47,111 nt of DNA from a virus: positions 1-47,111 of the IMG/VR virus record IMGVR_UViG_3300011269_000007; one strand, written 5' to 3'. The notes beneath the pieces were generated by a model. That model saw nothing but the letters and a program-made list of their open reading frames with translations. It did no database searches and was not told where the DNA came from. Shown here piece after piece: positions 10,645 through 47,111 of the stretch. Position 1 is the stretch's first letter. The number at the start of each line of letters is the position of its first letter. The translations under genes and the position numbers were made by a program.

Positions 10645-10859
10645 TGCAAATCATTACGTCAGACATACAAGATAATGTGTTCCAATTCCCTGATGGCACC
10701 CAGTTCGAAAAAGATATCCCTTTTCATGGATGGATCAGGGTTATCTCAAGCAGTAAAACTTGGTGGTTCAACTCAGCTTTTATTGTTGCTATAATCCCAG
10801 GAGGGTATAATGAAAGCCAGCTTAATACTTTGCCTATTCTTAGCCGGTTGCGTTCATGA
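10644..10859 (+). CDS. Unknown 71-aa protein
   Basis: ATG 10644 overlaps the preceding TAA behind an embedded AGGAGG. It is beta-rich (DIQDNVFQFPDGTQFEKDI; GWIRVISSSKTWWFN) with a hydrophobic patch (SAFIVAIIPG). The lipoprotein gene starts inside its 3' end at 10810. No family recognised. Confidence 0.55.
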   Translation: MQIITSDIQDNVFQFPDGTQFEKDIPFHGWIRVISSSKTWWFNSAFIVAIIPGGYNESQLNTLPILSRLRS

Positions 10860-10989
10860 GTCCTTCGCCCAAATCGCCGATCGAAAATGCCAGTCCTTCG
10901 GTGCTAAGCCGGGGACCGACACTTACGTCAAGTGCCGAGCCCAGATCGACACGAGTCAAGCGATTGGGGTTTATAGTTTAACGCATTGA
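10810..10989 (+). CDS. Small lipoprotein (59 aa)
   Basis: ATG 10810 lies just after GGAGGGTATA, a strong ribosome site inside the previous gene. The N-terminus MKASLILCLFLAGC is a type II signal with lipobox L-A-G-C, so Cys14 should be lipidated. The mature part has a paired-Cys motif (CQSFGAKPGTDTYVKC) that I have seen in small alphaproteobacterial and phage lipoproteins of unknown function. Possible roles are superinfection exclusion or an o-spanin-like part, though no partner i-spanin is adjacent. It belongs to the early block, which favours exclusion over lysis. Confidence 0.75.
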   Translation: MKASLILCLFLAGCVHESFAQIADRKCQSFGAKPGTDTYVKCRAQIDTSQAIGVYSLTH

Positions 10990-16692: not shown

Positions 16693-17818
16693 GTGGACAG
16701 ACAACATCGAGACATCGGAGATCTATCGCACATGGGCAGGGATAGTGACAATAGCGAGTGTGCTAGAGCAGCGCTGCTTTATGGTGACAAGTTCACCGTT
16801 GTTTCCCAATCTCTATGTCTTTCTTGTGGGACCACCTGGGATTGGAAAGTCAAACACCATAAAGGCTGCTGGACGTTTCTTGCGGAAGCTACCAGAGTTC
16901 AAGATTGCCCCAACGAGTACAACTGGCGCATCGCTCGTAGATGCCCTCGCTGCCGCGAACAAGAGAATAATCCTCCATCCCGAGCCGCCGATTGAGTACA
17001 ACTCAATGCTTCTTCTCCCGGATGAACTAGGAGCCTTACTCAATGACTATGACAATGCACTTGTTGCAAATCTTACTACTTTCTACGACGTTACAGTTCC
17101 TTACAGCCAAACTAGAAGAGGAGCGGGAATTAATATCTCTATTCCTAATCCTCAGCTTTCCATCTTGGCTGGAGACACTACCTCCCATCTCCATGATCTA
17201 CTCCCTAGTGGAGCTTGGGATCAAGGCTTTATGTCCAGAACAATCATGATCTTTGCTGACGATCGACCATTCCAGGAGGACCTGTTCAATATCCCAGTGA
17301 AGGACTCAAGCAACGATCTAATGCACGACCTCACTGCCATCTACGCCCTCAAGGGCCAGTTCGAGATCGATGAAGAGTATCGAAATCAGATCAATGCTTG
17401 GAGATCTGGGGGGCTTCGCCCAGTCCCAAACCATCCCAAGCTCCAACACTACAACTCTAGGCGCTTGGCTCACGTGTTGAAGCTATCTATGGTCTCTTCG
17501 GCTGATCGGGGAGACACTTTAAGGATCACTATTCAGGATTTCAACCGGGCTTTCGCTTGGCTGACCCAAGCCGAGAGCCAAATGCCTTACATCTTTGCCG
17601 CGAGGGTTAACCTCGATTCAAGAGCAATGGACGAAATTGCCCACTTCATTAGGGAAAAGGATGAACCAAATGAAACCAAAGTTGTTCGGTTCGCCTGCGA
17701 ACGACTCCCTGTTCATGCGGTTAGCAAAACGTTGGATTTGATGATGAGTTCGGGAATGATTAAGGTGAGTAAGGTTGATAGGCAAGGGCTGCGATACTTT
17801 AAGGCCCTTTTGGCCTAA
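16598..17818 (+). CDS. DUF3987-like replicative helicase / ATPase (406 aa)
   Basis: No ATG precedes the conserved opening FVEWTDNIETSEIYRTWAG. GTG 16598 has TTGGAG six bases upstream and is my choice, overlapping the polymerase by 95 bp; TTG 16535 is an alternative. Walker A is VGPPGIGKSNT and the Walker B region is SMLLLPDELGALL. The polar stretch ILAGDTTSHLHDLL and the later Arg-containing GFMSRTIMIF fit DUF3987-type phage and plasmid helicases. It ends convergently with the leftward block. A separate primase is not visible. Confidence 0.75.
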   Translation: MTRIPQGSNPILNKTNGSAQRKCRSWIESFVEWTDNIETSEIYRTWAGIVTIASVLEQRCFMVTSSPLFPNLYVFLVGPPGIGKSNTIKAAGRFLRKLPEFKIAPTSTTGASLVDALAAANKRIILHPEPPIEYNSMLLLPDELGALLNDYDNALVANLTTFYDVTVPYSQTRRGAGINISIPNPQLSILAGDTTSHLHDLLPSGAWDQGFMSRTIMIFADDRPFQEDLFNIPVKDSSNDLMHDLTAIYALKGQFEIDEEYRNQINAWRSGGLRPVPNHPKLQHYNSRRLAHVLKLSMVSSADRGDTLRITIQDFNRAFAWLTQAESQMPYIFAARVNLDSRAMDEIAHFIREKDEPNETKVVRFACERLPVHAVSKTLDLMMSSGMIKVSKVDRQGLRYFKALLA

Positions 17819-18059
17819 CCCAAGATTTGATTTCGTTCACGGAGTTATGAATTTCGTCCACCTTAGTTTCGAGTCGAATAATCTTCTCGCCTTGTGGAAC
17901 CATCAATATCATTTGCTTTTCTAGCTGCTCAACACGATTATTAAACCCTCCAACCCAATAGGCAAAGATTACAATCTGAATCGTCATGGCTGTAATCAGA
18001 GCTATAGGAACCCTCTTATCAAGATGCCAACGATTATTGTATTCTCGGTGATCACTCAT
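17799..18059 (-). CDS. Small membrane protein with a coiled-coil tail, possible holin/spanin-like (86 aa)
   Basis: ATG 18059 overlaps the stop of the 1777-aa gene (ATGA). A short polar N-terminus and basic LDKRVP precede one membrane helix, IALITAMTIQIVIFAYWVGG. A heptad-rich coiled coil follows (RVEQLEKQMILMVPQGEKI; RLETKVDEIHNSVNEI). N-in topology plus a periplasmic coil is the layout of i-spanins and some holin-associated proteins, but no overlapping o-spanin is seen. It is the last gene of the late block. Confidence 0.6.
   Translation of the reverse strand: MSDHREYNNRWHLDKRVPIALITAMTIQIVIFAYWVGGFNNRVEQLEKQMILMVPQGEKIIRLETKVDEIHNSVNEIKSWVRPKGP
17802..17816. terminator. Small hairpin at the convergent gene ends
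   Basis: AGGCC (17802-17806) and GGCCT (17812-17816) flank CTTTT; one mismatch further out extends the stem to about seven pairs. It overlaps the stop codons of both converging genes (17818 and 17799) and could act in both directions. Weak stem, so low confidence. Confidence 0.3.
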
Positions 18060-25512: not shown

Positions 25513-26055
25513 CTAGAATCCTGGAACCCCCATTTGCCCGGCCTGCAACCACTTGCTCGAAACGCTCCCCCCAGCCCCCAAGATCGAACTCGCAGCCCCA
25601 ATGAACCCTTCCGTCTTAGCATTGCTCGCCGCCATCATATCAAGGTTCGATTGAGCGGTCTCCTGCGCTGCGATCACCTCCTGCCCATAAGCCCGCCTAG
25701 CGGCGTTAGAGCGGATCATAGCTTGGTCTTGAACCCCAAGCTCGGCCTCAGAGACTCGAACCTCAAGACTAGAGCCAGAGTTCAGGTCGAGCCCCGATGC
25801 TCCTTGGATAGCTCGGGTTTCCCCAATCTGAGCTCTAGTTTTCATTCCCGATTGCTGGGCCTGAACCTCTCCAAGAGACGTTTCATAATCCGCATTTTGC
25901 TTCGCAATCTTAGCATTCATCGCGGCGATGCCAGCCTGATAAGTATACATCTCAGACTTGGCTTCACCGCCAAAAATTCTTCCTATGGCCTCAGTCATTC
26001 CACCAGCGGCGGAGGAGCCAATAGAAGCCATTGCTAAGCTAGCAGGATCAGCCAT
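25513..26055 (-). CDS. Internal virion protein, T7 gp14-like (180 aa)
   Basis: ATG 26055 overlaps the GNAT-like gene end. The N-terminus is hydrophobic and small-residue rich (ASLAMASIGSSAAGGMTEAIG). A long Ala/Gln helix follows (YQAGIAAMNAKIAKQNADYE; QIGETRAIQGASGLDLNSG), then another Gly/Ala-rich end (IGAASSILGAGG). This is the usual pattern of gp14-type ejection proteins that insert in the outer membrane. Gene order GNAT-like, gp14-like, M15 protein, giant protein supports the call. Confidence 0.8.
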   Translation of the reverse strand: MADPASLAMASIGSSAAGGMTEAIGRIFGGEAKSEMYTYQAGIAAMNAKIAKQNADYETSLGEVQAQQSGMKTRAQIGETRAIQGASGLDLNSGSSLEVRVSEAELGVQDQAMIRSNAARRAYGQEVIAAQETAQSNLDMMAASNAKTEGFIGAASSILGAGGSVSSKWLQAGQMGVPGF

Positions 26056-26437
26056 CTCTAGCTATCCTAAACGAGTTCTCATTAACAAACTCCGCCCCCA
26101 ACCATTCTAGCCATTGCCTAGAGGTAGCATTCACACAATGCCCAAGGAGTTCTCGATAAGGAAGCTCAGCTATGACCCGCCTAGACCAACGAACAAACCG
26201 CAACGGATGGGCCTCACAAATATCGGTGTGGAGCATCCATAGATAGGCCCTATCCGAGAGAATTGTTTCTGGAATCAACCCAACCACACAAGCCTCAACT
26301 CCATCAGCCTTTCCAACAAAGACCACAAGACTTCGTTTAACAAAATCCCGAACAACCTCTTCCCCTTCTGGATGAGAGCTTCGGGCTACCATCGAGGCGA
26401 TATCGAAATCGGATGTTCGAACTACCTCGACCTTCAT
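26048..26437 (-). CDS. GNAT-like protein in the T7 gp13 position (129 aa)
   Basis: The sequence VRTSDFDIASMVARSS at the N-terminus, LVVFVGKADGVEACVVGLIPE, then AYLWMLHTDICEAHPLRFVRW resemble the acetyltransferase-fold proteins found next to tail tubular B in podoviruses (gp13-type). No clear acetyl-CoA loop (Q/R-x2-G-x-G/A) is seen, so catalysis is doubtful. T7 gp13 is needed for virion morphogenesis. The start overlaps a 36-aa basic gene by ATGA. Confidence 0.65.
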   Translation of the reverse strand: MKVEVVRTSDFDIASMVARSSHPEGEEVVRDFVKRSLVVFVGKADGVEACVVGLIPETILSDRAYLWMLHTDICEAHPLRFVRWSRRVIAELPYRELLGHCVNATSRQWLEWLGAEFVNENSFRIARDG

Positions 26438-26544: not shown

Positions 26545-29107
26545 CAATTACAATCTCCGGCACTACTCCAAGAATCGTCGCGGGTAAGGGATCATCGATC
26601 TGAAAGCAAATCTGCCCCGGTACATCCCAAAGCGGGTCGATCACGAAGTGGACGTTGGCCGTCTGCAATGGAATTGCTTGGTTGAGTTGAACCCCAATGT
26701 TCTGGTCCTTGAGCCCAATTACTGAATTGAAGTTCCGCCCAACCTTAAGCCCGCGAGTATTGGCCAAGATCAGATTCACAGCTCCAATCTTCTTCCTTTT
26801 ACCTATAACCGTCGGCTCCCCAACATCCAATGGCATGGTTTGCGCTTGACATTGATAGCCAAGGCCACCGACCACCTTGGTAGCGGGAGAGGGAAGGGTA
26901 ATTGACCCATCGCCTGCTACTACTTGGCTAGGGCTAACCCCACCATCCGCAAGGATTGAGATTCTTTGGCCGATTAAATAGTCAAAGCCAAAGAATTTCG
27001 TTGCCGGTGTTGCAATGGACCAAGAACCAGAGGCAAAAGGAACTGGAGTGCGATTTGGATCGTTTGGGATAACCTGGGTTATTGGCTGGGTTATAGTTCC
27101 CGTAATCTGGGTAGAAGAGCTAAACCCTGTTATTGTTGCTATTCCTCCCCCAGCACGAAGAACTTGTCCCACACTCGAAGAACTGAACACTCCCACTGAC
27201 GCAGTAAAGGTTGCATTCCCTACAGACGAGCTTACCACTAAGTTGGCGGCTGGGGTGGGGAGACTCGATTGCGTGCCACAATCCACACTCCAAGCATCCT
27301 CTGCACCATAAACAAACTGCCTTTGCTGCTGCCGCTCGATCCATTGAACCGTGTTCCCCCCAACGAATCTGGTCACCACAAAGTAAGCCGCATCAACCTG
27401 CCCCTCCTGCACGCTAGTCACAGATTGGTAAAGGCCAAGGGTGTCATGCCTCGCCCAACCAATCATCTGCTGCTCTTTCATAAAGGTCAGCGAGAGGAGA
27501 ATACCATCATCTCTAACGGACCAGACAACCTTGAATGGCTCTTCGGCGTAGGTCCACTCCCTAATTCCGTGTCCAAAGAAGAGGTGATTGGACTTGATTG
27601 AGATATCGGTCCCAGTGTAGATTGCAACGTAGATGTTGTAGGAAAGGTCCCGTACGATCGAGCCCTTTGCCTGGACATATAGGATATCTTCGTTAACGAC
27701 AATCGGCGGGACATCGCTAGAACCATTATAGGCTTGAGGGGTTATCGTAGCGTTAGCTGGGGTGACTCCGATAGTGGCGTTGGTTCCAGAACCTGCGGAT
27801 AGGGTAAAGGCCGCTCGACCGGTACCGAAGACTAACCCTCCAGGCATCGGGAGCATGTAACGAATTGAGTTTAGCTGAGTCGAAACAATGGTTCCAGTGA
27901 TTTCATCAGAGGCTTGGATTGGGGTTGAGAAGTTGAAGTTGTTAAATTGCCCTGGCTGAGATCCCCAAAAGGTGGCTGGCTGAGAGGTTGAAGAGGCGTA
28001 GTAGGCGCGTTGTTGGAAGAAGACAACAGAGCCTGGGTTGTTGCCATTGGCGAATGGGAGATTGTTGACGACCTCTGGGGTGGTGGTAAAGTCTGGAACT
28101 ATGTTGGAGTCGACGAAGCTGGTTCCAGAGGAGAAGCCGATGAAGCCATAGCTAACACCAGACGGAACAGCCCCTGCAACCGAGAGCTCGGCCTTGTACA
28201 GGTTATAGGTCACCGCTGATGCTACAGAGTTCCAAGTCAGCGAGATAGTCCCGGCTGTAGTGCCAATATTCACAGCCCCATTCACCGCGGCAGCAGCCGA
28301 TGGAAGGCTCTCCTGCCCAGACGCATCAACGGCGGTGACTTCGTACGAATAGTTGGCCGTTCCAGCGGATGAGGCAACGCCAACGAGACCGGTTGGGGCA
28401 TCGATGGTGGTGCCAAAAACAATAGAAGCAAAGGCCCAATTGGTTGGAGCGAGAAAGGACAAGGTTTTTGGCGGGTAGAGCGGGTGGGTTATGAATAGAA
28501 CGCTAACGCTTTGAACGAACTTGATCAATGCGAGGTCAGCCGCAGCATAAGGAGAGCCGATTGTATAAACCCTAGAAGCAGTCCCTCCTCCGGAATAGGC
28601 CGAGAAGTTGGTCGAGTTGATCGGGTTTCCGTTGACATCGAGAAGGGTCACCACCGCGCCAATGGCAGAGCCAACCTGGGCGAATCGGCCATTGATAGCA
28701 AGCATCCCGGCTACGCCAGTGATAAAGATCCAATCCCCAGGGACGAAGTTATTCCCTGGAATGTTGGCGGTGGCGGGGGCTCCATTGGTAATCGAAGTGA
28801 TTCCAAAGGGTGCTTCGAGCACCGGCGCACCATTAGAGATGAACCGGCAATAACGATCACCGAATTCGATCACGTAGGTCGTGGTAACGGATTGAGAGAA
28901 GCCGATCAGACGAACAGCGGTAGAGGACTTAAGGCATTGGATTACGAACTTGGTTCCGGATCGGGTGGAGATCCCTGATCGGTAATCAACGAAGAAGTTT
29001 CTGCAAACCGCAAGGCCAGAATGGTAGGCAGCGAGATCGGTTCTCGCAAATATTGAAGGTGCGAGTTCGCCCGAGCTAAAGCTTGCTTGTATAATGTTCT
29101 CTGAGAT
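26528..29107 (-). CDS. Tail tubular protein B / nozzle, T7 gp12-like (859 aa), apparent ATC start
   Basis: A conventional start exists only at GTG 28873, but the frame stays open upstream to the HNH stop. That upstream stretch encodes the canonical N-terminus of this family (IIQASFSSGELAPSIFARTD, then CRNFFVDYRSGISTRSGTKF). AGGAGG (29118-29113) sits five bases ahead of ATC 29107, where ATG would be expected. The body is beta-rich, with an Fn3-like repeat (YSYEVTAVDASGQESLPSA). It forms the distal tail tube. Either ATC initiates, or a start codon was changed near the HNH insertion. The minimal version is 26528-28873. Confidence 0.8.
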   Translation of the reverse strand: MSENIIQASFSSGELAPSIFARTDLAAYHSGLAVCRNFFVDYRSGISTRSGTKFVIQCLKSSTAVRLIGFSQSVTTTYVIEFGDRYCRFISNGAPVLEAPFGITSITNGAPATANIPGNNFVPGDWIFITGVAGMLAINGRFAQVGSAIGAVVTLLDVNGNPINSTNFSAYSGGGTASRVYTIGSPYAAADLALIKFVQSVSVLFITHPLYPPKTLSFLAPTNWAFASIVFGTTIDAPTGLVGVASSAGTANYSYEVTAVDASGQESLPSAAAAVNGAVNIGTTAGTISLTWNSVASAVTYNLYKAELSVAGAVPSGVSYGFIGFSSGTSFVDSNIVPDFTTTPEVVNNLPFANGNNPGSVVFFQQRAYYASSTSQPATFWGSQPGQFNNFNFSTPIQASDEITGTIVSTQLNSIRYMLPMPGGLVFGTGRAAFTLSAGSGTNATIGVTPANATITPQAYNGSSDVPPIVVNEDILYVQAKGSIVRDLSYNIYVAIYTGTDISIKSNHLFFGHGIREWTYAEEPFKVVWSVRDDGILLSLTFMKEQQMIGWARHDTLGLYQSVTSVQEGQVDAAYFVVTRFVGGNTVQWIERQQQRQFVYGAEDAWSVDCGTQSSLPTPAANLVVSSSVGNATFTASVGVFSSSSVGQVLRAGGGIATITGFSSSTQITGTITQPITQVIPNDPNRTPVPFASGSWSIATPATKFFGFDYLIGQRISILADGGVSPSQVVAGDGSITLPSPATKVVGGLGYQCQAQTMPLDVGEPTVIGKRKKIGAVNLILANTRGLKVGRNFNSVIGLKDQNIGVQLNQAIPLQTANVHFVIDPLWDVPGQICFQIDDPLPATILGVVPEIVIGDSVK

Positions 29108-30434: not shown

Positions 30435-30697
30435 TAGTACCGACCTTGAACCACGCAGCGATGGCCAATGGTGGTATAGGTCCCACCACCATCACCAAAG
30501 ACGTTCCGAGATTCCTGAGAGCCACGATTGCCGAGGTTCGTTCCTCCCAGGCCAACTGGCGAAGTGTCCATAACCCCGATCGGCCCCACCGGCGGAGCGT
30601 ATCCCATCACATCCCGTCGCCCCAGGTCTCCGCCCCCAGAAGGGCCTTGGTCTATTCGACGCTCAGGGCCAAACTCGCGAAGAAAATCCCTTCCCAT
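30434..30697 (-). CDS. Gly-rich small protein (87 aa), FGPER family
   Basis: It begins GRDFLREFGPERRIDQG and continues Gly/Pro/Arg-rich (GGGDLGRRDVMGYAPPVG). The N-terminus parallels the neighbouring 89-aa product (AKDILSGYGPERSSGGG), so the two are probably paralogues. Low-complexity composition and a place between fibre and adaptor genes suggest a minor virion component. Starts and stops overlap on both sides. Confidence 0.55.
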   Translation of the reverse strand: MGRDFLREFGPERRIDQGPSGGGDLGRRDVMGYAPPVGPIGVMDTSPVGLGGTNLGNRGSQESRNVFGDGGGTYTTIGHRCVVQGRY

Positions 30698-30966
30698 CAG
30701 TGCCTCCCTTGCACAGACTTGATTATCCCTCCAAGCCCAGGTGAGCCGGAGCTTTGGCTCTTGAGCGAAGCTTGCCCTTGGCTACCACAATAGTCAAAGT
30801 TCTTCCCATGGATGCTGGGAGATTTTGGATCGCCAATATTCCTTGGCCCACAAGGCGAGCGATAGTTATTCACATCGACCTTATCGTCCATGTCAATCCC
30901 ACCATCAGCATCGCCACCACCAGAGCTTCGCTCAGGGCCATAGCCAGAGAGAATATCTTTTGCCAT
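30697..30966 (-). CDS. Gly/Ser-rich small protein (89 aa), FGPER family
   Basis: It opens AKDILSGYGPERSSGGGDAD, like the 87-aa protein downstream, then becomes Gly/Ser/Pro-rich with two Cys. It starts one base after the stop of a 46-aa gene. Probable minor structural or unstructured accessory protein; no known domain. Confidence 0.55.
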   Translation of the reverse strand: MAKDILSGYGPERSSGGGDADGGIDMDDKVDVNNYRSPCGPRNIGDPKSPSIHGKNFDYCGSQGQASLKSQSSGSPGLGGIIKSVQGRH

Positions 30967-31375: not shown

Positions 31376-31647
31376 CAATAGCTGCCTTGTGACCCAGCTT
31401 TCTTAATCGGGGAACCCGGCTGTCCCCCATCACGATTGGCCCCAGGGCCTTGGTCAAGGCCGTCGGTTGGGCCGATTGGAGCTCGAAAGCCTTCCCCATC
31501 TCGGAACCGCTCAGCGGCTTTGGGATCGATTGCGCTACCGAGTTGGTTTGGGAAGTGCTGATTCACTGCATAAGGGCGGGGCTCTCGGTGGAAGCCTTCT
31601 TGGATGTTTCGATCAGGGCGCCCTTGCTTCATCATGATTTTAGTCAT
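31375..31647 (-). CDS. Small polar protein (90 aa)
   Basis: It starts at 31647, overlapping the LAGLIDADG gene's stop by 4 bp. Composition is Arg/Gly/Asp/Pro-rich (PDRNIQEGFHREPRPYA; DGLDQGPGANRDGGQPG) with little predicted secondary structure. It belongs to the run of low-complexity genes between the fibre and the adaptor. No family recognised. Confidence 0.5.
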   Translation of the reverse strand: MTKIMMKQGRPDRNIQEGFHREPRPYAVNQHFPNQLGSAIDPKAAERFRDGEGFRAPIGPTDGLDQGPGANRDGGQPGSPIKKAGSQGSY

Positions 31648-32021
31648 GGGGATTCTCCTTTCTGTAGCATCTTCATAAGATCAACTACGTTAACCTTTTC
31701 TGGCCTAAAGCCATTAAGACATTGCCAAATCTTTTGGCGCCTTCTATAACTCATATGAGTTACAACTAAACGCATGATAGTTCTCGCACGTTCTCCATAA
31801 ACTCTTACGGAGAAAACCTCTTGACCGCTCTTTCTGGGTATTGATAAGACATTAATAGAAATACCTAGAACCCTCTCGTAAATGGAAGCTATCTTATAAA
31901 TTGTATCCTCATCAGTCATATTAACTTCTACTACGTGGCTTGTGTAAAGGGCAAAATGTCCCTCACCTTCAAGTAGTCCGACCAGCCAACCGAGTTCAAA
32001 ATCTGAGAGTGGATTATTCAT
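31644..32021 (-). CDS. LAGLIDADG homing endonuclease (125 aa)
   Basis: Residues ~9-22 read ELGWLVGLLEGEGHFAL, the LAGLIDADG helix (W-L-x-G-L-x-E-G-E-G-x-F) with its catalytic acidic residue. A single motif in 125 residues implies a homodimer. The remainder (ISINVLSIPRKSGQEVFSV; AKTIM-like RARTIMRLVVTHMSYRRRQ) fits the alpha-beta DNA-binding saddle. It overlaps both neighbours by a few bases and is not inside an intron that I can see. This makes a second selfish-element candidate in the tail region. Confidence 0.82.
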   Translation of the reverse strand: MNNPLSDFELGWLVGLLEGEGHFALYTSHVVEVNMTDEDTIYKIASIYERVLGISINVLSIPRKSGQEVFSVRVYGERARTIMRLVVTHMSYRRRQKIWQCLNGFRPEKVNVVDLMKMLQKGESP

Positions 32022-34300: not shown

Positions 34301-35845
34301 TTATATACCCACACAGATAAAACTACCAAACCATCCCGCTGTACTAGGAAAGACAATAACTAAAGCAGTCGTTGTCGTGCTCAACAAAGTCACTGCACCA
34401 TTGACACCATTTGCAGTGCAAAACGGCGCGGTTGTGTAGGTCTTTGCGAAAGTCACCGTGCAGGTCGTGGCCGCTGCCGTCTGTCCATTTATCAGGCCAG
34501 CATTGTCCGTCCCAGTCACGCCAGCCGAGCCGGCACCATTGCACCCTGCCGTGAGCGTTGGCGCCGTGCCAGAATAGCCAAGATGCCCATTAGTGGTTGA
34601 TATCTGTGTGCTTGGATTATTACCACCCTGTGAAAGATTGATATTATGCGCTCCATAAACCGCCAAATTGACTACGCTCGGAGCAGTCGAGCCATTCTGC
34701 TCTTGGAGTCCATTGACGATATTTGCCTTGGCACCCGCCCCTGGCGTTCCATTATTAACAAAAGTTAGAGTAGGTGCGCCGGTATCTACTGAGTTAATAA
34801 TATTTCCGGAGGGAAATCCTGAATTAACAGTATAGTCATAGAGAATTGCACCTGGTGTTCCACCGCTTTTAATTACCCTCAAATTATTGAATATGTTACC
34901 ATCGCTGACCTGAAAGCTAACCGCCATATTTGTTCCGCCAACGAGGATGGTCGTTCCGACGAACACATTGTAATCGGTGTCGCTGGTGCCGTCCGAGGCT
35001 CCCGTAAGGACGATGCCAAAGTTTCCCGATGCTCCAGGAACAACGACGGTCGTGTTGGTCCAAATATTCTGCCAGCTGTCGACATTATTGACGCCTGTAT
35101 AGCCCCCAATGGGATTTGAAGTTGATCCGATGCCTTGCAGGCAATTGACAATGACAAGGTTTCGACTATCGCCATTCTGTGCGGAAGTGGGAGCTATACA
35201 CTGCGTCGCCGTGCTGGCGCCATCGAGGTACAAGTTTTGGATGCCCCATCCGGACAGTGGCCCCTTGATGGAGATCATGGGAGAGGCACCACCGGCCCAT
35301 GTCAGTTTCGGACCAGTGACCGTGGTAAACGGAAACACAGCCGAGCCGGTTCCGGGGTTGGCAATACCCTGGAGGATGACCCCTGATCGAGTAGAAACTG
35401 CCGAAGTCGTGCCGTTTCCGATCGTCAGAGTTGACGAAATCTTGCAGTTCGCGACGGGGAAAAGCACGATACCCCCGTTGGCCGGCAGCGAATTGATGGT
35501 GGCTTGAATTGCCGTCGTGTCGTCGGTCGTTCCATCGCACTTGGCGCCAAAGGCCGGGTCGGTGACGGAGACCGAAACGGTAAGCAGCGACTTGGTCTGC
35601 GCCACGGTCAGATCAATCGGCGGCGCACCTACAGCGGTGTTGTTGCCCTTGAAGGTAAAGGCTGGCATTTGGGCAAGATTGGAATTGCCAACCACTCCAA
35701 ACCCAAGACCTCCACCATTAACAAATCCAGTGCTAGCAATCCGATTAGTGTTGTCTCCAATCGGTGCAGTCGTGGTGGTAGTGGCAAACTGGGCTTGCGC
35801 CACACTCGATGAAAGTAGAAGTGCAAGAAGAAGCTTTTTCATCAT
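34301..35845 (-). CDS. Secreted tailspike-like beta-helix protein (514 aa)
   Basis: Tandem ATGs at 35845 and 35842 begin a clear Sec signal (MMKKLLLALLLSSSVAQA, cut before Q). After ~70 residues the pattern DPAFGAKCDGTTDDTTAIQA, then NGGIVLFPVANCKI is the pectate-lyase-3/tailspike beta-helix opening. The last ~85 residues form a Cys-containing C-terminal module (LTAGCNG...GTDNAG...CTVTFAKTY...FICVG) shared with the 141-aa product at 38118-38543. Likely a polysaccharide-binding or degrading protein. The signal peptide suggests periplasmic routing, which is odd for a virion part. Confidence 0.75.
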   Translation of the reverse strand: MMKKLLLALLLSSSVAQAQFATTTTTAPIGDNTNRIASTGFVNGGGLGFGVVGNSNLAQMPAFTFKGNNTAVGAPPIDLTVAQTKSLLTVSVSVTDPAFGAKCDGTTDDTTAIQATINSLPANGGIVLFPVANCKISSTLTIGNGTTSAVSTRSGVILQGIANPGTGSAVFPFTTVTGPKLTWAGGASPMISIKGPLSGWGIQNLYLDGASTATQCIAPTSAQNGDSRNLVIVNCLQGIGSTSNPIGGYTGVNNVDSWQNIWTNTTVVVPGASGNFGIVLTGASDGTSDTDYNVFVGTTILVGGTNMAVSFQVSDGNIFNNLRVIKSGGTPGAILYDYTVNSGFPSGNIINSVDTGAPTLTFVNNGTPGAGAKANIVNGLQEQNGSTAPSVVNLAVYGAHNINLSQGGNNPSTQISTTNGHLGYSGTAPTLTAGCNGAGSAGVTGTDNAGLINGQTAAATTCTVTFAKTYTTAPFCTANGVNGAVTLLSTTTTALVIVFPSTAGWFGSFICVGI

Positions 35846-36768: not shown

Positions 36769-37065
36769 TCAGCCTCCAATCCAGTTAGTACCATTGCAGA
36801 ACACCAACGCATTCACGGCTCCCCCACCGGCGATGATGGCGCCAAGAGCTGGAAGGAGTGCGTCGGTTACGAAGTAGATTTGGCCCTTAATGGCCGCATT
36901 GCAAGCAGGAAGGGCACCCACAGTGCTTGATAAGGCCACAGCTCCAGTCACCCCACCGCTGCCGCCCATGGTCATCGGGAGTGGTATTGGAATTGTTTGG
37001 CGAACATCTTGCGCCACCGCAAAGCCGCCAATAGCAAGCGTGAGGACTATTGCAAGATACTTCAT
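36769..37065 (-). CDS. Secreted 98-aa protein with Sec signal
   Basis: ATG 37065 lies in an ATGA overlap with the 191-aa gene. The signal peptide MKYLAIVLTLAIGGFAVA is cut before Q. The mature part is small (PMTMGGSGGVTGAVALS; LPACNAAIKGQIYFVTD; VFCNGTNWIGG), with two Cys that could form a disulfide in the periplasm. The ending CNGTNW resembles C-termini of tail fibre or collar-type proteins. One of four tandem exported proteins. Confidence 0.7.
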   Translation of the reverse strand: MKYLAIVLTLAIGGFAVAQDVRQTIPIPLPMTMGGSGGVTGAVALSSTVGALPACNAAIKGQIYFVTDALLPALGAIIAGGGAVNALVFCNGTNWIGG

Positions 37066-37637
37066 TGCTGATACCCCCATACATTGATAAAAGTCGAAGT
37101 ATTTCCTGCTAGACCAGGAACAGTTACCACAATGGTCGAGTTCACGGCATTTGCAGCCACGCACACTGGAAAGGTGTAGCTAACCAATGCGTTCTGATTA
37201 GTTACACCTGTAGCAAAGACATAACCACCACTCAAGGTAAAGGTATTGCCATTAGCAAGAGTACCAACCGTTGGAGATACAGCAGCTCCAGTAGTAGATC
37301 CGAGGCCAGATATATTAAAGCCACAAATATAGGTCAGCTTGCCTGCTGCCGCCGGAAGGGTAGCAGTGGCTGTGGTGGTATCTGCGCCTGAGAAGGTGGC
37401 GGTGATCGAGGTCTGGGCAGCAAATGTACCAGAACCAGGTGTGGTAATGATTCGTCCAACGGAATCGATCTGGACGTAGCCAGTCTTCCCGTTGGTAATA
37501 GTTGGAAGAGTGGTGTTGAACACCCCTCCCATATTGAAGGTAGAGGTTGGATTGGGCTGGTCGTATTGCTGGGCCAGGGCCCCCGAGCAAAGGGCAAGGC
37601 CAATCCCAACTAGGAGAGCGTTCTTGAGTTTCATCAT
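37062..37637 (-). CDS. Secreted 191-aa beta-rich protein with Sec signal
   Basis: The start is one of two adjacent ATGs (37637, 37634), overlapping the preceding TGA. The signal peptide KLKNALLVGIGLALCSGALA is cut before QQ. The mature part is Thr/Gly/Val-rich beta (YICGFNISGLGSTTGAAVSP; VNSTIVVTVPGLAGNTSTF), with Cys pairs. YICGF...PVC...GYQ recalls small rhizobial phage virion proteins, although an assignment is not certain. Secretion is clear from sequence; destination and partner are unknown. Confidence 0.7.
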   Translation of the reverse strand: MMKLKNALLVGIGLALCSGALAQQYDQPNPTSTFNMGGVFNTTLPTITNGKTGYVQIDSVGRIITTPGSGTFAAQTSITATFSGADTTTATATLPAAAGKLTYICGFNISGLGSTTGAAVSPTVGTLANGNTFTLSGGYVFATGVTNQNALVSYTFPVCVAANAVNSTIVVTVPGLAGNTSTFINVWGYQQ

Positions 37638-38113
37638 CGCATTCTGTACCAAGAGTTAGTCGCTTGTACATAGCGCCACTCAACACTGCCCCCAGCAGCA
37701 AGAGCACTACCAATTGTCGCTCCATTTACAATGGTAGAGCCATCAGTCACAGCCACAGATGCCGCAGTATTGAACGCACCACCAGAGCCATTAACCCATT
37801 CAAAGATCTCCCCATCCCACGGTGTGGCCGGGAGATTCACCACCATAGCAGCGCCTGCCGCAGCGGTCGAGATCAACGTTGCGGCATTCAAGTTGGTCAA
37901 GGTCGATAACGTTCCAGTGGTCAGAGCGGTGGTAACTACCCCTTGAGCATTCCGCATCTGGCCGGTCGGAATGTAAAGGCCAGTTCCACCAATTCCAACC
38001 TGGGCAAGGATGACCTCGGAGCCGGATAGGGTTCGGGAAGTTAGTTGCTGAGCCAAGCCAGCAACCACCCCAAAGAGGAGAGCCGCAGCTCCCCCCAACA
38101 GATACCTTTTCAT
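37634..38113 (-). CDS. Secreted 159-aa protein with Sec signal
   Basis: ATG 38113 follows GGGAGATAGGGCT, which includes the upstream stop. The signal peptide KRYLLGGAAALLFGVVAGLA is cut before QQ. The mature protein is Thr/Ala/Gly-rich beta (VTTALTTGTLSTLTNLNAA; GEIFEWVNGSGGAFNTAASV), ending RYVQATNSWYRMR. It resembles a small fibre or decoration subunit. Its stop overlaps the next start (TGATGATG). Confidence 0.7.
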   Translation of the reverse strand: MKRYLLGGAAALLFGVVAGLAQQLTSRTLSGSEVILAQVGIGGTGLYIPTGQMRNAQGVVTTALTTGTLSTLTNLNAATLISTAAAGAAMVVNLPATPWDGEIFEWVNGSGGAFNTAASVAVTDGSTIVNGATIGSALAAGGSVEWRYVQATNSWYRMR

Positions 38114-38117
38114 AGCC

Positions 38118-38543
38118 CTATCTCCCAACACAGATGTAGTTCAAGAGGTTATTGGAAGCCGAGGTCTGAACCGTTGTGATTGCCGTAGCCGTAACAGTCC
38201 AGTTCTGCGCTGCAAGCGGAGTGCCTTGCCAGTTCAACACGCAGTTGGGCACACCCGAATAGGCAGTTGCGAAGGTGATCACGCAACCAGTTGAGGTGGT
38301 GCCCATCGTAACAGTACCAGCAAAGTCCGTTCCCACAATCGATGGGGTGGTTCCACAGGCGGTTAGGACTGGAGAAGCACCACCATTACCAACCGAGGAG
38401 TGGAGGTGCTTACCGGTGAAGTCGTACCCAAGAGGACCGGTACCATCCTGAGAGAGCTGGACCGAGCGATTAACCTGGGCCAGAGCAAGCCCAGAGAGAA
38501 GGCCAAAGAATAGGCCGCCAACAATCCAACGATTGATCTTCAT
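38118..38543 (-). CDS. Secreted 141-aa protein with the Cys-rich C-terminal spike module
   Basis: ATG 38543 follows AGGGAGGAAGCA. The signal peptide NRWIVGGLFFGLLSGLALA is cut before QV. From about residue 55, LTACGTTPSIVGTDFAG, CVITFATAYSGVPNC and LLNYICVG align with the C-terminal module of the 514-aa tailspike-like protein. The module is therefore present both alone and fused. Four conserved Cys positions suit disulfides formed in the periplasm. Confidence 0.75.
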   Translation of the reverse strand: MKINRWIVGGLFFGLLSGLALAQVNRSVQLSQDGTGPLGYDFTGKHLHSSVGNGGASPVLTACGTTPSIVGTDFAGTVTMGTTSTGCVITFATAYSGVPNCVLNWQGTPLAAQNWTVTATAITTVQTSASNNLLNYICVGR

Positions 38544-43335: not shown

Positions 43336-43695
43336 CTAACGCCTTGCTAACCTTCTTCGCGCCACGTCATCAAAACCTGCATCCTTTGATAGTTGGCCTT
43401 GTGGTATCGGAGTTGCTTTAGGTAAAGAACCACCCCTTCTTAAGGCATCTTTGATACCCTCTACACCAACGGTGTCGTATTGTTGCAAAACTCCCTCATA
43501 CCTACCACGACGATCTTCAACGTTGCCTTGCAGATTCGGATCTAGGCCCTCAGAGAAGTTGAGGTTCTGCCCACGAAATCTGGCGTCGAAGCTGCCAACC
43601 TCCTTCATGGTGGCAAGGGCCATCCATTTATCGACCTCAGAAGGGGTTGAGCCCTCCATGGGAACAACGTTGGAACTAGGCACCTTCAAAGGCAT
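43336..43695 (-). CDS. Unknown 119-aa protein upstream of the portal
   Basis: ATG 43695 overlaps a TGA (TGATG). It has an acidic/polar sequence (TPSEVDKWMALATMKEVGSF; LDPNLQGNVEDRRGRYEGVL) and a basic C-terminus (DDVARRRLARR). The portal begins 3 bp after its stop. No family recognised. Confidence 0.6.
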   Translation of the reverse strand: MPLKVPSSNVVPMEGSTPSEVDKWMALATMKEVGSFDARFRGQNLNFSEGLDPNLQGNVEDRRGRYEGVLQQYDTVGVEGIKDALRRGGSLPKATPIPQGQLSKDAGFDDVARRRLARR

Positions 43696-43859
43696 CAGGC
43701 TTGTCCCACTGGCTGACTAATCAAAGCCTGTTGCAGACTACCAATTATAGCTGCGCGCTTGTCCAAGGTTTGCGAATCGTCTTCAATCCGATTAAGAGCA
43801 GCCTCAAGCAAGCGCCTAAGCTCTGCATTCTCTTGGCGCAAGCGCTCAAGCTCCCCCAT
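43695..43859 (-). CDS. 54-aa coiled-coil protein
   Basis: ATG 43859 overlaps the endolysin stop (TGATG), and its own TGA overlaps the next ATG (TGATG). The sequence is a regular heptad helix (LERLRQENAELRRLLEAALN), then RAAIIGSLQQALISQPVG. It could be a lysis accessory or a chaperone. It is too short for easy family assignment. Confidence 0.65.
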   Translation of the reverse strand: MGELERLRQENAELRRLLEAALNRIEDDSQTLDKRAAIIGSLQQALISQPVGQA

Positions 43860-44437
43860 CAATCCCACCCATCATCAATGGTTTCATCTAGCTTGACCAT
43901 CGCCCGAAGGAGTCCAGCGCAACCTAATTGGTGATCCCCAGCATCCGGATCGAAGTGGCCATCAGCAATATACTTGCCTTTAATGTATTGGTTGGTTCCG
44001 GCCCAGAGATAGGGCGAGGCCATATGATGGATTAACTGATAGCCAAGACCGTTGTACTCCTCCAGCATTGTTAGAGAGCCACCAATCGACCAATTAGTGT
44101 TCTTGGCAGTAAAGGGAGGGCAATTAACCAAGGCATCAATCGCTGCGTCTTCCCAAGAGCCAAACGGACCTCGGCTACGAGGGACGTGGATTGAAGGTTT
44201 GTCCCAAGGATCGCCTTGAGCTAGATTAGCTCGCCAAGACTGAGAGCTTTCCCTTTCGTGGATAACGGCAATGATGGCCCAAGGTACACGCGTTCGAGCG
44301 GTCACGGATCGATAGCGGGACTTGGCTTCGAGAAGTTTGCGCGCAACGTGTTCAAAGGCGAGCTCGAAGTCGTGCTTGAGAACCATTCGATTCCAACGGC
44401 CCAGATTGGCGGTCCTAAGCGGGATTAGATCTACCAT
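43859..44437 (-). CDS. Endolysin, lysozyme-like (192 aa)
   Basis: The pattern VPWAIIAVIHERESSQSW (with the likely catalytic Glu in HERES), then SRGPFGSWEDAAIDALVN, SLTMLEEYNGLGYQ and ASPYLWAGTNQYIKGKYIAD is the typical lysozyme-like peptidoglycan domain of Rhizobiales and Caulobacter phages. It cleaves the cell-wall glycan at the end of infection. No signal peptide is seen, so a holin should release it; a holin-like gene is at 46112-46327. Confidence 0.87.
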   Translation of the reverse strand: MVDLIPLRTANLGRWNRMVLKHDFELAFEHVARKLLEAKSRYRSVTARTRVPWAIIAVIHERESSQSWRANLAQGDPWDKPSIHVPRSRGPFGSWEDAAIDALVNCPPFTAKNTNWSIGGSLTMLEEYNGLGYQLIHHMASPYLWAGTNQYIKGKYIADGHFDPDAGDHQLGCAGLLRAMVKLDETIDDGWD

Positions 44438-44613
44438 ACAGTTCCACCAAGGGGGCTCAAATAGCCACGAGAATGATCTGGAAGCAAAGGCTCGGATTTA
44501 GTCAGCTTTGGTTGAGGGCCTTCGGCTAATCGCTTGTGCCACTCAACGGTGGAGGCAAGGCCTTCGTTGTAGATGCGAAGGGCTTGTTCTTCGAAGTTGA
44601 TACTTTCACTCAT
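44431..44613 (-). CDS. Unknown 60-aa protein before the endolysin
   Basis: ATG 44613; its end overlaps the endolysin start by 7 bp. The first part is helical (NFEEQALRIYNEGLASTVEW), followed by a Pro/Gly-rich tail. No family recognised; co-expression with the endolysin is likely. Confidence 0.55.
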   Translation of the reverse strand: MSESINFEEQALRIYNEGLASTVEWHKRLAEGPQPKLTKSEPLLPDHSRGYLSPLGGTVW

Positions 44614-44632: not shown

Positions 44633-44830
44633 CTATTGCCCCAAAAGAGTCTTGTTTCCGGTATTGGTCGGATTTCCACCCCCAAGGATGGTGGCCCCAA
44701 AGCCTTGGCTTGCCCCAGCCATCTGTCGTTGGCGATCTCCTGCCCCTTTGGTGGCTTGAGAGCCAAACATGGGTGGGTTGGGTGGTGGAGGTGGGGCTAC
44801 GGGTTGAGGAACGTTCACGCTGGGAGACAT
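44633..44830 (-). CDS. Pro/Gly-rich small protein ending in KTLLGQ (65 aa)
   Basis: The protein is low-complexity (PQPVAPPPPPNPPMFG; GASQGFGATILGGG), with the C-terminal hexapeptide KTLLGQ shared with the 84-aa product at 31121-31375. Both also have a central Gly/Gln-rich TIL(G) segment. The shared ending suggests a common partner binding two separate small proteins. No known domain. Confidence 0.55.
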   Translation of the reverse strand: MSPSVNVPQPVAPPPPPNPPMFGSQATKGAGDRQRQMAGASQGFGATILGGGNPTNTGNKTLLGQ

Positions 44831-44933: not shown

Positions 44934-45164
44934 CTAGGCGACCTCTTCTTTGCGGATTTCAAGCTCCTCCAAGCGATCGCCAAGAAAAGCCCGAACGTTG
45001 ATCAAGAGCTCGGCCATCACTAGGTCATAAGCCCCTGTAGGATATCCAGAACACCCATCACAATCCTTTGAATGTTCTTTCATCACCTTCGCCACCACCC
45101 GACCGACATCCGAGAGATGAAAGTCAAAAAGCTGATGGGAAAGGGCTTCGCCTATTGCTGCCAT
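44934..45164 (-). CDS. Unknown 76-aa protein with a CxxC pair
   Basis: ATG 45164 follows AGGAGGTTCTT. It has an amphipathic helix (DVGRVVAKVMKEHSKDCDGC) with a CDGC motif and an acidic end (LEELEIRKEEVA). Possibly metal-binding or redox-active, but one Cys pair is not enough to define it. It lies between the outer-membrane barrel and the low-complexity gene. No family recognised. Confidence 0.55.
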   Translation of the reverse strand: MAAIGEALSHQLFDFHLSDVGRVVAKVMKEHSKDCDGCSGYPTGAYDLVMAELLINVRAFLGDRLEELEIRKEEVA

Positions 45165-45173
45165 AAGAACCTC

Positions 45174-45890
45174 CTAGAACTTGTAGCTCAGACCACCTCG
45201 AATGAGGCTTACATTGTCATCAGCGTGAAAGATCATATTAGCCGACACCCCAATTGGCATCAACTTGCCACTAAAGCTCCCATTGATATCGTTTAGGAAG
45301 TAATGAAGATACTCCACCCGAGCCAGTAAGCTAGGAGTAAGAGCGATCTCAATTCCACCGCCAAGTACGGCACCACCAAGAGTTGGTTTGAAGTTGACCT
45401 GACTTCCGTCCGTCCCTGTAACGGTGAAGTCAGCACTTCCCCACCCATAACCACCGGTGCCATAGGCCAAAACATTCGGCACGAGTATGTAGCCGAGTCT
45501 TCCGCGAAACGACGCGAGCCAACGGTTCTTGGAATTGACGTTACCGATGAACCCCGGGTTCTGTTGTGTTCCATCGAGCGTCGCGATATCGCCATCACCC
45601 TCAACGCCGAACACGAATCCTGAGCCTGGAAGGTGCCACATATAGCCGGCATGGAGACCGCCAACGAACCCCTGCGGCGAGGTTGCAAAGTCCGTCCCAA
45701 TGTTGTGGAGAAAGTTAGTTGTCTGACCGGATCCAGCTCCTCGTTCGAAGCCATAACCACCATTGATGCCGACGTAGAAACCATTCCATGGGTCGCCATA
45801 ACCCAGCGGAGCCGGAGGGGCTTTGGTGTAGAGATCAGCTCCAATGGCCGGGGTCACAAGCAGGGTCGAAAGCAAGAGAATCTTTTTCAT
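45174..45890 (-). CDS. Outer-membrane beta-barrel protein, Hyphomicrobiales porin-like (238 aa)
   Basis: ATG 45890 has AAAGGA eight bases upstream. The signal peptide MKKILLLSTLLVTPAIGA is cut before DLYTKAPPAP, the classic opening of rhizobial Omp25/Omp31-type barrels. YVGINGGYGFERGAG, LASFRGRLGYILVPNVLAYG, IALTPSLLARVEYLHYF and the final SLIRGGLSYKF (terminal Phe for BAM recognition) complete an eight-stranded-like barrel. A phage-borne outer-membrane protein may block superinfection or alter host permeability. Its placement in the lysis-side island is unusual. Confidence 0.88.
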   Translation of the reverse strand: MKKILLLSTLLVTPAIGADLYTKAPPAPLGYGDPWNGFYVGINGGYGFERGAGSGQTTNFLHNIGTDFATSPQGFVGGLHAGYMWHLPGSGFVFGVEGDGDIATLDGTQQNPGFIGNVNSKNRWLASFRGRLGYILVPNVLAYGTGGYGWGSADFTVTGTDGSQVNFKPTLGGAVLGGGIEIALTPSLLARVEYLHYFLNDINGSFSGKLMPIGVSANMIFHADDNVSLIRGGLSYKF

Positions 45891-45903: not shown

Positions 45904-46101
45904 TCAGGCAGTTGCGGCCTTAACGGCCCACATAGCAGCGTCCTCGTAATGGGTTTGGGCCAGAGATGCCAAACGAGGGTCTTTGGCCTTGAGCTCTTCG
46001 CAAAGGTCGATCAACTCAGCGGACTTTTGTTTGATCAGATGAACCAAAGGGCTGGCAGGCACATTGAATGAGATTCGAACTCGTTCTTCACCAATAGTCA
46101 T
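45904..46101 (-). CDS. acb2: Acb2-like anti-CBASS protein (65 aa)
   Basis: ATG 46101 follows AAGGAGGAAGA, a strong site. The C-terminal hairpin-helix KQKSAELIDLCEELKAKDPR plus LAQTHYEDAAMWAVKAATA matches the Acb2/Tad1-domain signature, in which the last helix carries an (E)-A-x-MWA-x-(K/R)-A motif also seen in T4 Vs.4. Members form hexamers that bind cyclic di- and trinucleotides and so starve CBASS effectors. At 65 residues it is a minimal form. It would counter a cyclic-oligonucleotide defence in the host. Gene name assigned by motif only. Confidence 0.75.
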   Translation of the reverse strand: MTIGEERVRISFNVPASPLVHLIKQKSAELIDLCEELKAKDPRLASLAQTHYEDAAMWAVKAATA

Positions 46102-46111
46102 TTCTTCCTCC

Positions 46112-46327
46112 TTAAACAGGTTTGGCCGGAGCCGGGGTTGGGGCGTTGGTGACATTACGATCCTTGGCGAATAGGCCAATGGCTCCGGCGGAGATAAGAC
46201 CGATATCAGTAAGCAAAGTGTCTCCATTCCATTGACCGGTTTGGGCCATTCCAGCAAGCTGGCCCAAGGCGGAGAGAATGGGCAAGAGCCCAGCGAGGGT
46301 GGTTTTCCAGGATGGCATTCCGAACAT
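46112..46327 (-). CDS. Holin-like two-helix membrane protein (71 aa)
   Basis: ATG 46327 is eight bases after AGGAGG. Two hydrophobic segments, TTLAGLLPILSALGQLAGMA (~10-29) and TDIGLISAGAIGLFA (~40-54), are separated by a short polar loop and followed by KDRNVTN and a Pro/Ala tail. The WKTTLAG...GLFAKDRNVTN layout is one I recall from small phage proteins annotated as holins. It probably times lysis together with the endolysin at 43859-44437. Confidence 0.65.
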   Translation of the reverse strand: MFGMPSWKTTLAGLLPILSALGQLAGMAQTGQWNGDTLLTDIGLISAGAIGLFAKDRNVTNAPTPAPAKPV

Positions 46328-46531: not shown

Positions 46532-46751
46532 TCTCCTTCTCGGCGGCGGGCCTGCTCAATGGTTGTCCGGGTCCGAGAATTCTTTGAAGCGTTCGTCGAG
46601 CAACATAGCGAGAGCGGCCAGAGGATACCTCAACAGCAGCGCTTTCGCGACAGAGAAGGCCAATCACCACCCCTTTGGGGTCGAGAAGCCAAATGCCCTT
46701 TGGCAGAGGTCGAGGCTCGATAAGCTTTCCCTTGACCGTGAGGCCCTTCAT
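46512..46751 (-). CDS. Unknown 79-aa protein overlapping the terminase end
   Basis: ATG 46751 lies in an ATGA overlap with the terminase stop. Its N-terminal half is beta-like (KGLTVKGKLIEPRPLPKGIW; LLDPKGVVIGLLCRESA), with a basic middle (SSGRSRYVARRTLQRILG). Size and position downstream of TerL do not match a small terminase. No family recognised. Confidence 0.55.
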   Translation of the reverse strand: MKGLTVKGKLIEPRPLPKGIWLLDPKGVVIGLLCRESAAVEVSSGRSRYVARRTLQRILGPGQPLSRPAAEKESADAPN

Positions 46752-47111
46752 GCTACCTCCATCGGGTGATAATCCCCTTTGGTCAGGATTTGATAAGGAT
46801 CATATTCCGATACCACATCATCCCTCGCGACCCATGGCTCCCCAAACCGGATGGGCTTGGGCTCGATTGGATAGGCGAAGGTACAGGCAAGGGCATCGAT
46901 ATCATCTGGGCTCTCCCGGCCCTCCCTCATCATGACCTCTTTCGAGGTTAGAATGATCTCGTCCCGATTGTTGAGTGTGTAGGTGATGGAAGCGAGTTGC
47001 TTCTTGAGATCTGGATCAGGCGGGAGGGCCCCACCCTTGAGCCAAGCTCGAAGGGATCCATACATCTCGGCCCTCTTGTTGGCGTAGCGTTCACCTTGGG
47101 TATTGGATTCG
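46748..47111 (-). CDS. terL: Terminase large subunit, C-terminal part (runs off the right edge)
   Basis: The frame is open from the right edge (…SNTQGERYANKRAEMYGSLR) and ends at TGA 46748. The segment RYANKRAEMYGSLRAWL and RESPDDIDALACTFAYP, with its DDxxDAL acidic cluster, is the end of the RNase H-like nuclease domain of terminase large subunits. It cuts and packages the genome into the capsid. The ATPase domain lies beyond the window. The stop overlaps the next ATG by ATGA. Confidence 0.85.
   Translation of the reverse strand, partial: ESNTQGERYANKRAEMYGSLRAWLKGGALPPDPDLKKQLASITYTLNNRDEIILTSKEVMMREGRESPDDIDALACTFAYPIEPKPIRFGEPWVARDDVVSEYDPYQILTKGDYHPMEVA

Follow-up and report, generated by a model that had tools for sequence, protein, structure and literature searches.

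A phage-encoded outer-membrane β-barrel and its linkage to lysis genes in uncultured phages

The virus record analyzed here, a stretch of 47,111 bp that we call the window (G000, classed as linear), carries a gene for an outer-membrane β-barrel protein next to holin-like and endolysin genes, and such barrel genes recur beside endolysins in other uncultured phages. Phage-borne barrels are already known; their linkage to a lysis module appears to be new, and no earlier description of a lysis-module barrel was found in the literature among open-licence PMC papers (one lead, PMC8705779, had no bearing on such barrels). Our preferred, though tentative, reading, to which we give somewhat less than an even chance, is that the barrel may belong to the lysis module as a late part placed in the outer membrane, perhaps substituting for the o-spanin.

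On the minus strand of the window, the genes run in the order terminase large subunit (terL) end, holin-like, Acb2-like, barrel, 76-, 65-, and 60-aa proteins, endolysin, 57- and 119-aa proteins, and portal. The features discussed below are the following.

46748–47110, minus strand: terminase large subunit, C-terminal part, cut by the record end
46112–46327, minus strand: holin-like small hydrophobic protein, assigned from hydrophobicity and position, with no family match
45904–46101, minus strand: Acb2-like anti-defence gene (Acb2_Tad1_hairpin; PF24729, E = 2.8e-13), ATG at 46101, directly upstream of the barrel
45174–45890, minus strand: outer-membrane β-barrel gene, OMP_b-brl family, host Omp25/31-like type, 238 aa, eight strands predicted
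44934–45164, minus strand: 76-aa protein downstream of the barrel, among the compared loci only in the window and its sister L001/G001
44633–44830, minus strand: 65-aa protein (phrog_831) conserved in relatives, where it lies between terL and portal
44431–44613, minus strand: 60-aa protein conserved in close relatives, likewise between terL and portal
43859–44437, minus strand: 192-aa endolysin, homologs of which carry PG_binding_1
43695–43868, minus strand: 57-aa ORF following the endolysin, coiled-coil-like, with a GTG start codon and lacking an obvious transmembrane (TM) segment
41549–43333, minus strand: portal/head-to-tail connector (PF12236, E = 2e-130), the bait for relatives
17799–18059, minus strand: 86-aa protein with an N-terminal TM segment and a coiled coil, a layout like that of i-spanins; in G003, the homolog comes directly downstream of the barrel

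The barrel ORF, whose coordinates include the stop codon, starts with ATG immediately behind an AAAGGA ribosome-binding motif and lies 13 nt past the Acb2-like gene and 9 nt ahead of the next gene on the same strand; no promoter or terminator signals above chance flank it. Its product begins with MKKILLLSTLLVTPAIGAD, which resembles a Sec signal, ends in ...SYKF with a terminal Phe, and matches the Pfam profile OMP_b-brl (PF13505) with an E value of 3.4e-13 (50.6 bits versus a cut-off of 28.7), which bears out the first-pass annotation's description of a full-length barrel with signal peptide and terminal Phe. The OmpA_membrane profile also matches (21.6 bits versus a cut-off of 21). The Pfam porin profile does not match, Ail_Lom is absent among the Pfam matches with E ≤ 1, and a PHROG search with the protein returned no matches. 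AlphaFold2, run on a 14-sequence alignment, predicted a barrel with eight strands at moderate confidence (pLDDT 72, pTM 0.66); the model from the single sequence (pLDDT 31) was unusable. A Foldseek search of the PDB with the former returned the OmpA transmembrane domain, Ail, OmpX, NspA, and OmpW; a weak fold match is a Pap31 entry filed under a Bartonella phage. The predicted fold is thus that of a small, eight-stranded barrel of the OmpA/OmpX type and no diffusion porin. Porins of the Lc/NmpC family have 16 strands, and the earlier label "porin" was dropped, as a barrel of the predicted type would not be wide enough to serve as a general diffusion porin.

Of the two neighbors that had been named in placing the barrel between an Acb2-like gene and an endolysin, the former is confirmed by its PF24729 match; no Pfam or PHROG model of its own covers the latter, but five of its homologs carry a C-terminal PG_binding_1 domain. 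Homologs with PG_binding_1 occur in other barrel phages. The holin-like protein would comprise about 72 residues from an ATG preceded by a ribosome-binding site or 86 from an upstream ATG; all holin calls in this work are based on size, hydrophobicity, and position, with no family match for any. In the sister record (L001/G001; 39,656 bp), the Acb2-like gene is missing: the blastn matches that stop at window position 45910 and resume at 46115 adjoin at L001 position 6095, and the holin-like gene directly precedes the barrel. The sister barrel differs by six nucleotide changes, five of them synonymous and one changing an amino acid, which, small as these numbers are, suggests purifying selection.

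A search based on the portal, which is of BPP-1/epsilon15 type, yielded 80 related loci. Scanning 49 records with Pfam revealed barrels in G001 and G003 and, as a weak match, in G026; a custom-built profile added one in G004. Since PF13505 misses the G004 barrel and most of the phage-clan barrels described below, Pfam-only counts were not used. The G003, G004, and G026 barrels lie between a large virion protein and a convergent primase gene, in an end-of-late lysis locus which in the barrel-less G009, G027, G040, G041, and G044 holds apparent lysis genes (an M15 peptidase in G027, confirmed by Pfam and PHROG; the others read from sequence). G026 has the row endolysin, holin-like gene, 59-aa protein, barrel, and G003 the row holin-like gene, Acb2, Tad2, barrel, in which the Acb2-like and Tad2-like anti-defence genes (L088 2094–2602; Tad2 E = 6e-24) are adjacent. 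The window and G001 have the endolysin, holin-like, and barrel genes grouped between terL and portal, and the TM+coiled-coil gene stands apart at the end-of-late site; in the window, about 26 kb separate it from the barrel, so that it did not move along with the latter. A family of secreted or lipobox-bearing proteins of about 115 residues occurs in the lysis locus of barrel-less relatives (G009 46828–47175, G040 25830–26189, G041 28428–28763, and G044 30550–30918) and is a possible alternative outer-membrane lysis factor; a complementary distribution of this family and the barrel was considered and rejected as not significant (Fisher P = 0.19).

To survey barrels more widely, two motif scans of IMG/VR were performed blind to gene neighborhood, with longer stretches fetched around short ones; IMG/VR records are possibly fragments, and gene calls in the fetched contigs were mechanical. 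The scans gave 30 contig stretches, 29 of which hold an in-frame barrel. The set defined by the motif AxAADLPxKAP comprised 19 loci, or 17 independent ones after two pairs above 80% identity had been collapsed. An endolysin gene lies on the same strand within 3 kb upstream of the barrel in 9 of these 17, compared with 22 of 510 control genes (4.3%; P = 9e-9), and on either side and strand in 10 of 17, compared with 10.4% (P = 1.4e-6); the control genes come from eight genomes of the window's own group rather than from a random phage sample, so that the P values are indicative. The linked endolysins are of the window type and of GH24-like, GH108, and GH19 kinds; endolysin profiles fused on iteration, and the calls were verified by pairwise BLAST, Pfam, and PHROG. 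The usual order is endolysin, holin-like gene, a gene for about 60 residues, barrel, and TM+coiled-coil gene, a short gene of the last kind being found within 1.4 kb downstream of the barrel in 9 of 27 loci (2.6% of control windows). Two of these barrel-adjacent proteins gave weak matches to Rz-like spanin profiles. Crude topology calls for the coiled-coil proteins were mixed, and the positive-charge rule was set aside since it miscalls lambda Rz. Some surveyed barrels have no endolysin nearby, and some lie amid structural genes (L149/L101, L096). A second small helical ORF of about 56–125 residues also recurs beside the barrel (L150, L173, L174/L135, L175, G026, and others).

The barrels differ in origin. 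At E ≤ 1e-12, 201 of 397 Rhizobiales genomes contain a homolog of the window barrel, with a best identity of 44%; the L168-type barrel (a 155-residue part as query) has weak matches in 46 of the 397, and the L169-type barrel has none in the same set. Trees of 54 and 49 sequences, calculated from a divergent alignment in which G004 forms a long branch, grouped 22 phage barrels into a clan made up of phage sequences only (support 99–100/99), which was unchanged after adding hosts picked with a phage-clan query. The window barrel, that of Agrobacterium phage Rivra, and L160 instead fall among host Rhizobiales Omp25/31-like proteins, with which the window barrel shares the signal peptide, an AD...KAP-type start, the predicted eight-stranded barrel, and the terminal Phe; unlike them, it is phage-borne, lies in a lysis module, and is at most 44% identical to the sampled hosts. 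Pfam, host searches, and trees thus agree with the initial assignment to a phage-encoded member of this host superfamily. Its tree position together with the low best identity marks the window barrel as an old recruit, and on sequence grounds we regard it as a separate, not recent recruitment into a niche filled by phage-clan barrels in relatives. The phylogeny proposed to find the donor delivered the group and no named donor. Judged from the barrel's relatives only, the window phage, a soil phage, probably infects rhizobia-like bacteria.

None of three phage-clan barrels used as queries had a match among cultured phages, and the only cultured-phage match to the window barrel is Rivra gp27. 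This, too, is a host-type barrel near a lysozyme gene, but it is 31% identical to the window barrel, stands alone on the strand opposite to the lysozyme, and belongs to a phage with an integrase. No integrase was found in the window record or 11 relatives, and the virulent life style that had been proposed for the window phage is therefore plausible; a direct terminal repeat was not found in the record.

Our lipobox detector, validated by its finding lambda Rz1, Bor, e15 (epsilon15) Rz1, and DLP12 RzoD, revealed no spanin-like (Rz1-type) lipoprotein in the barrel modules; the few other matches it gave in these modules fall in antisense or overlapping frames, in the barrel ORFs, or in ORFs outside the lysis genes. 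In the window, neither the barrel nor its module contains a lipobox, so that the barrel is not an o-spanin of the lipoprotein kind, and no Rz family had a Pfam match above cut-off in 35 records. Barrel-less relatives likewise mostly lack lipobox proteins, and the absence is thus not specific to barrel phages. The only lipobox ORF in the window encodes a lipoprotein-like protein of 59 residues in the early region (10810–10989, plus strand). Both the window barrel and its candidate partner (17799–18059) are devoid of cysteines; two-component spanins mostly contain them. Kongari 2018 (PMC6139136) noted that an outer-membrane protein could act as o-spanin and that spanins are unidentifiable in about 13% of phages (91 of 677), including Rhizobium phage 16-3. 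Two phages without spanins, 16-3 (searched over the first 50 of its 60 kb) and BPP-1, gave no barrel in profile searches; Bbp1 of the latter was considered and rejected, as it is not a barrel.

Co-directional linkage to several unrelated endolysins and the presence of different barrel types in one phage group point to a job at the lysis stage, and recurrence in unrelated soil phages suggests that the barrel is no stray host gene but aids the release or protection of progeny. In the proposed mechanism, the barrel would be made late, together with holin and endolysin. After Sec export and BAM-dependent folding into the outer membrane of the host, it would act when infection ends, at the stage of release that concerns this membrane. 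In the favored version, it would replace the missing Rz1-type lipoprotein as outer-membrane anchor, cooperating directly or loosely with the inner-membrane coiled-coil protein 17799–18059; alternatively, many inserted copies may simply weaken the outer membrane. As in Rz/Rz1 two-component spanins, the place is the lysis module and many barrel loci have a small TM+coiled-coil neighbor, but the outer-membrane part would here be a barrel and no lipoprotein, and the partnership is putative. The full generalization, that integral barrels paired with small inner-membrane coiled-coil proteins stand in for Rz1-type lipoproteins widely in uncultured Rhizobiales soil phages and arose at least twice, from barrels of the phage clan and of host type, we consider rather unlikely. 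Against a lysis role speaks the presence of Acb2 and Tad2 in such modules, which means that the site also gathers anti-defence genes, as do the barrels with no endolysin nearby. The spanin version in particular is weakened by the distance between barrel and coiled-coil gene in the window, by the lack of cysteines in both products, and by the scarcity of lipobox proteins in barrel-less relatives as well.

The Acb2 and Tad2 neighbors also strengthen a close rival, which we judge to be possible but to rank behind the lysis role: a late barrel may cover, displace, or mimic the host receptor, keeping competitors out and progeny from sticking to debris. It would then be one of the accessory genes that accumulate around lysis genes, like lambda bor and PA-2 Lc/NmpC. 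The host type of the window barrel would suit such receptor masking, as would the Rivra barrel, which stands alone close to the lysozyme gene but on the opposite strand, and the position of nmpC (prophage DLP12) and bor (lambda) adjoining lysis genes. The PA-2 Lc precedent invoked in the first-pass annotation, traced here via nmpC, holds insofar as both are phage-encoded outer-membrane barrels beside lysis genes; it fails in orientation, as the precedents are divergently oriented (Lc/NmpC in temperate phages or prophages), whereas the present barrels are mostly co-directional and operon-like, the window barrel being co-directional with eight predicted strands. Lambda Lom/Ail and Bor are likewise phage-encoded outer-membrane proteins, and Ail is a fold match to the window barrel, but the latter lacks an Ail_Lom Pfam match, and Bor, a lipoprotein, is encoded on the opposite strand. 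The lack of above-chance promoter or terminator signals around the window barrel and the filling of one niche by distinct barrel clans also disfavor masking.

That the barrel alters what the infected cell takes up or how it withstands envelope stress, and hence permeability or host fitness, is improbable. The weak fold match to the Bartonella phage Pap31 entry would fit it, Pap31/HbpA being a heme-binding outer-membrane protein (PMC3483173). However, eight-stranded barrels are not general diffusion channels, a benefit to a lysogen is unlikely given that no integrase was found, and linkage to endolysins is not predicted. Carriage of the barrel in the virion or in accompanying membrane fragments, which the same Pap31 entry and the barrels among structural genes (L149/L101, L096) might hint at, is very improbable in view of the signal peptide and barrel targeting and the usual position in a holin/endolysin neighborhood. 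Least credible and disfavored is a functionless host passenger or assembly contamination: the sequence is host-like, but the gene is intact in two distinct phage records, with five of six changes synonymous, a ribosome-binding site, and tight spacing.

For the question of how phages lacking a recognizable spanin breach the outer membrane of Gram-negative hosts, and how many do so, the recurrent endolysin/holin/barrel/coiled-coil module of uncultured phages, the phage-only barrel clan, and the one phage with a recruited host-type barrel supply candidates. Should the barrels mask receptors, they would instead constitute a large unrecognized set of exclusion proteins.

Two further observations concern other parts of these genomes. 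Four proteins among the structural genes of the window (34301–35845, 37062–38543) begin with Sec signal-like sequences, and comparable cases are found in L096, L150, and L176. Finally, there are two homing-endonuclease-like ORFs with an LEGEG motif, one in the window (31644–32021) and one in L001 (5480–5870), at sites that differ between the sisters.
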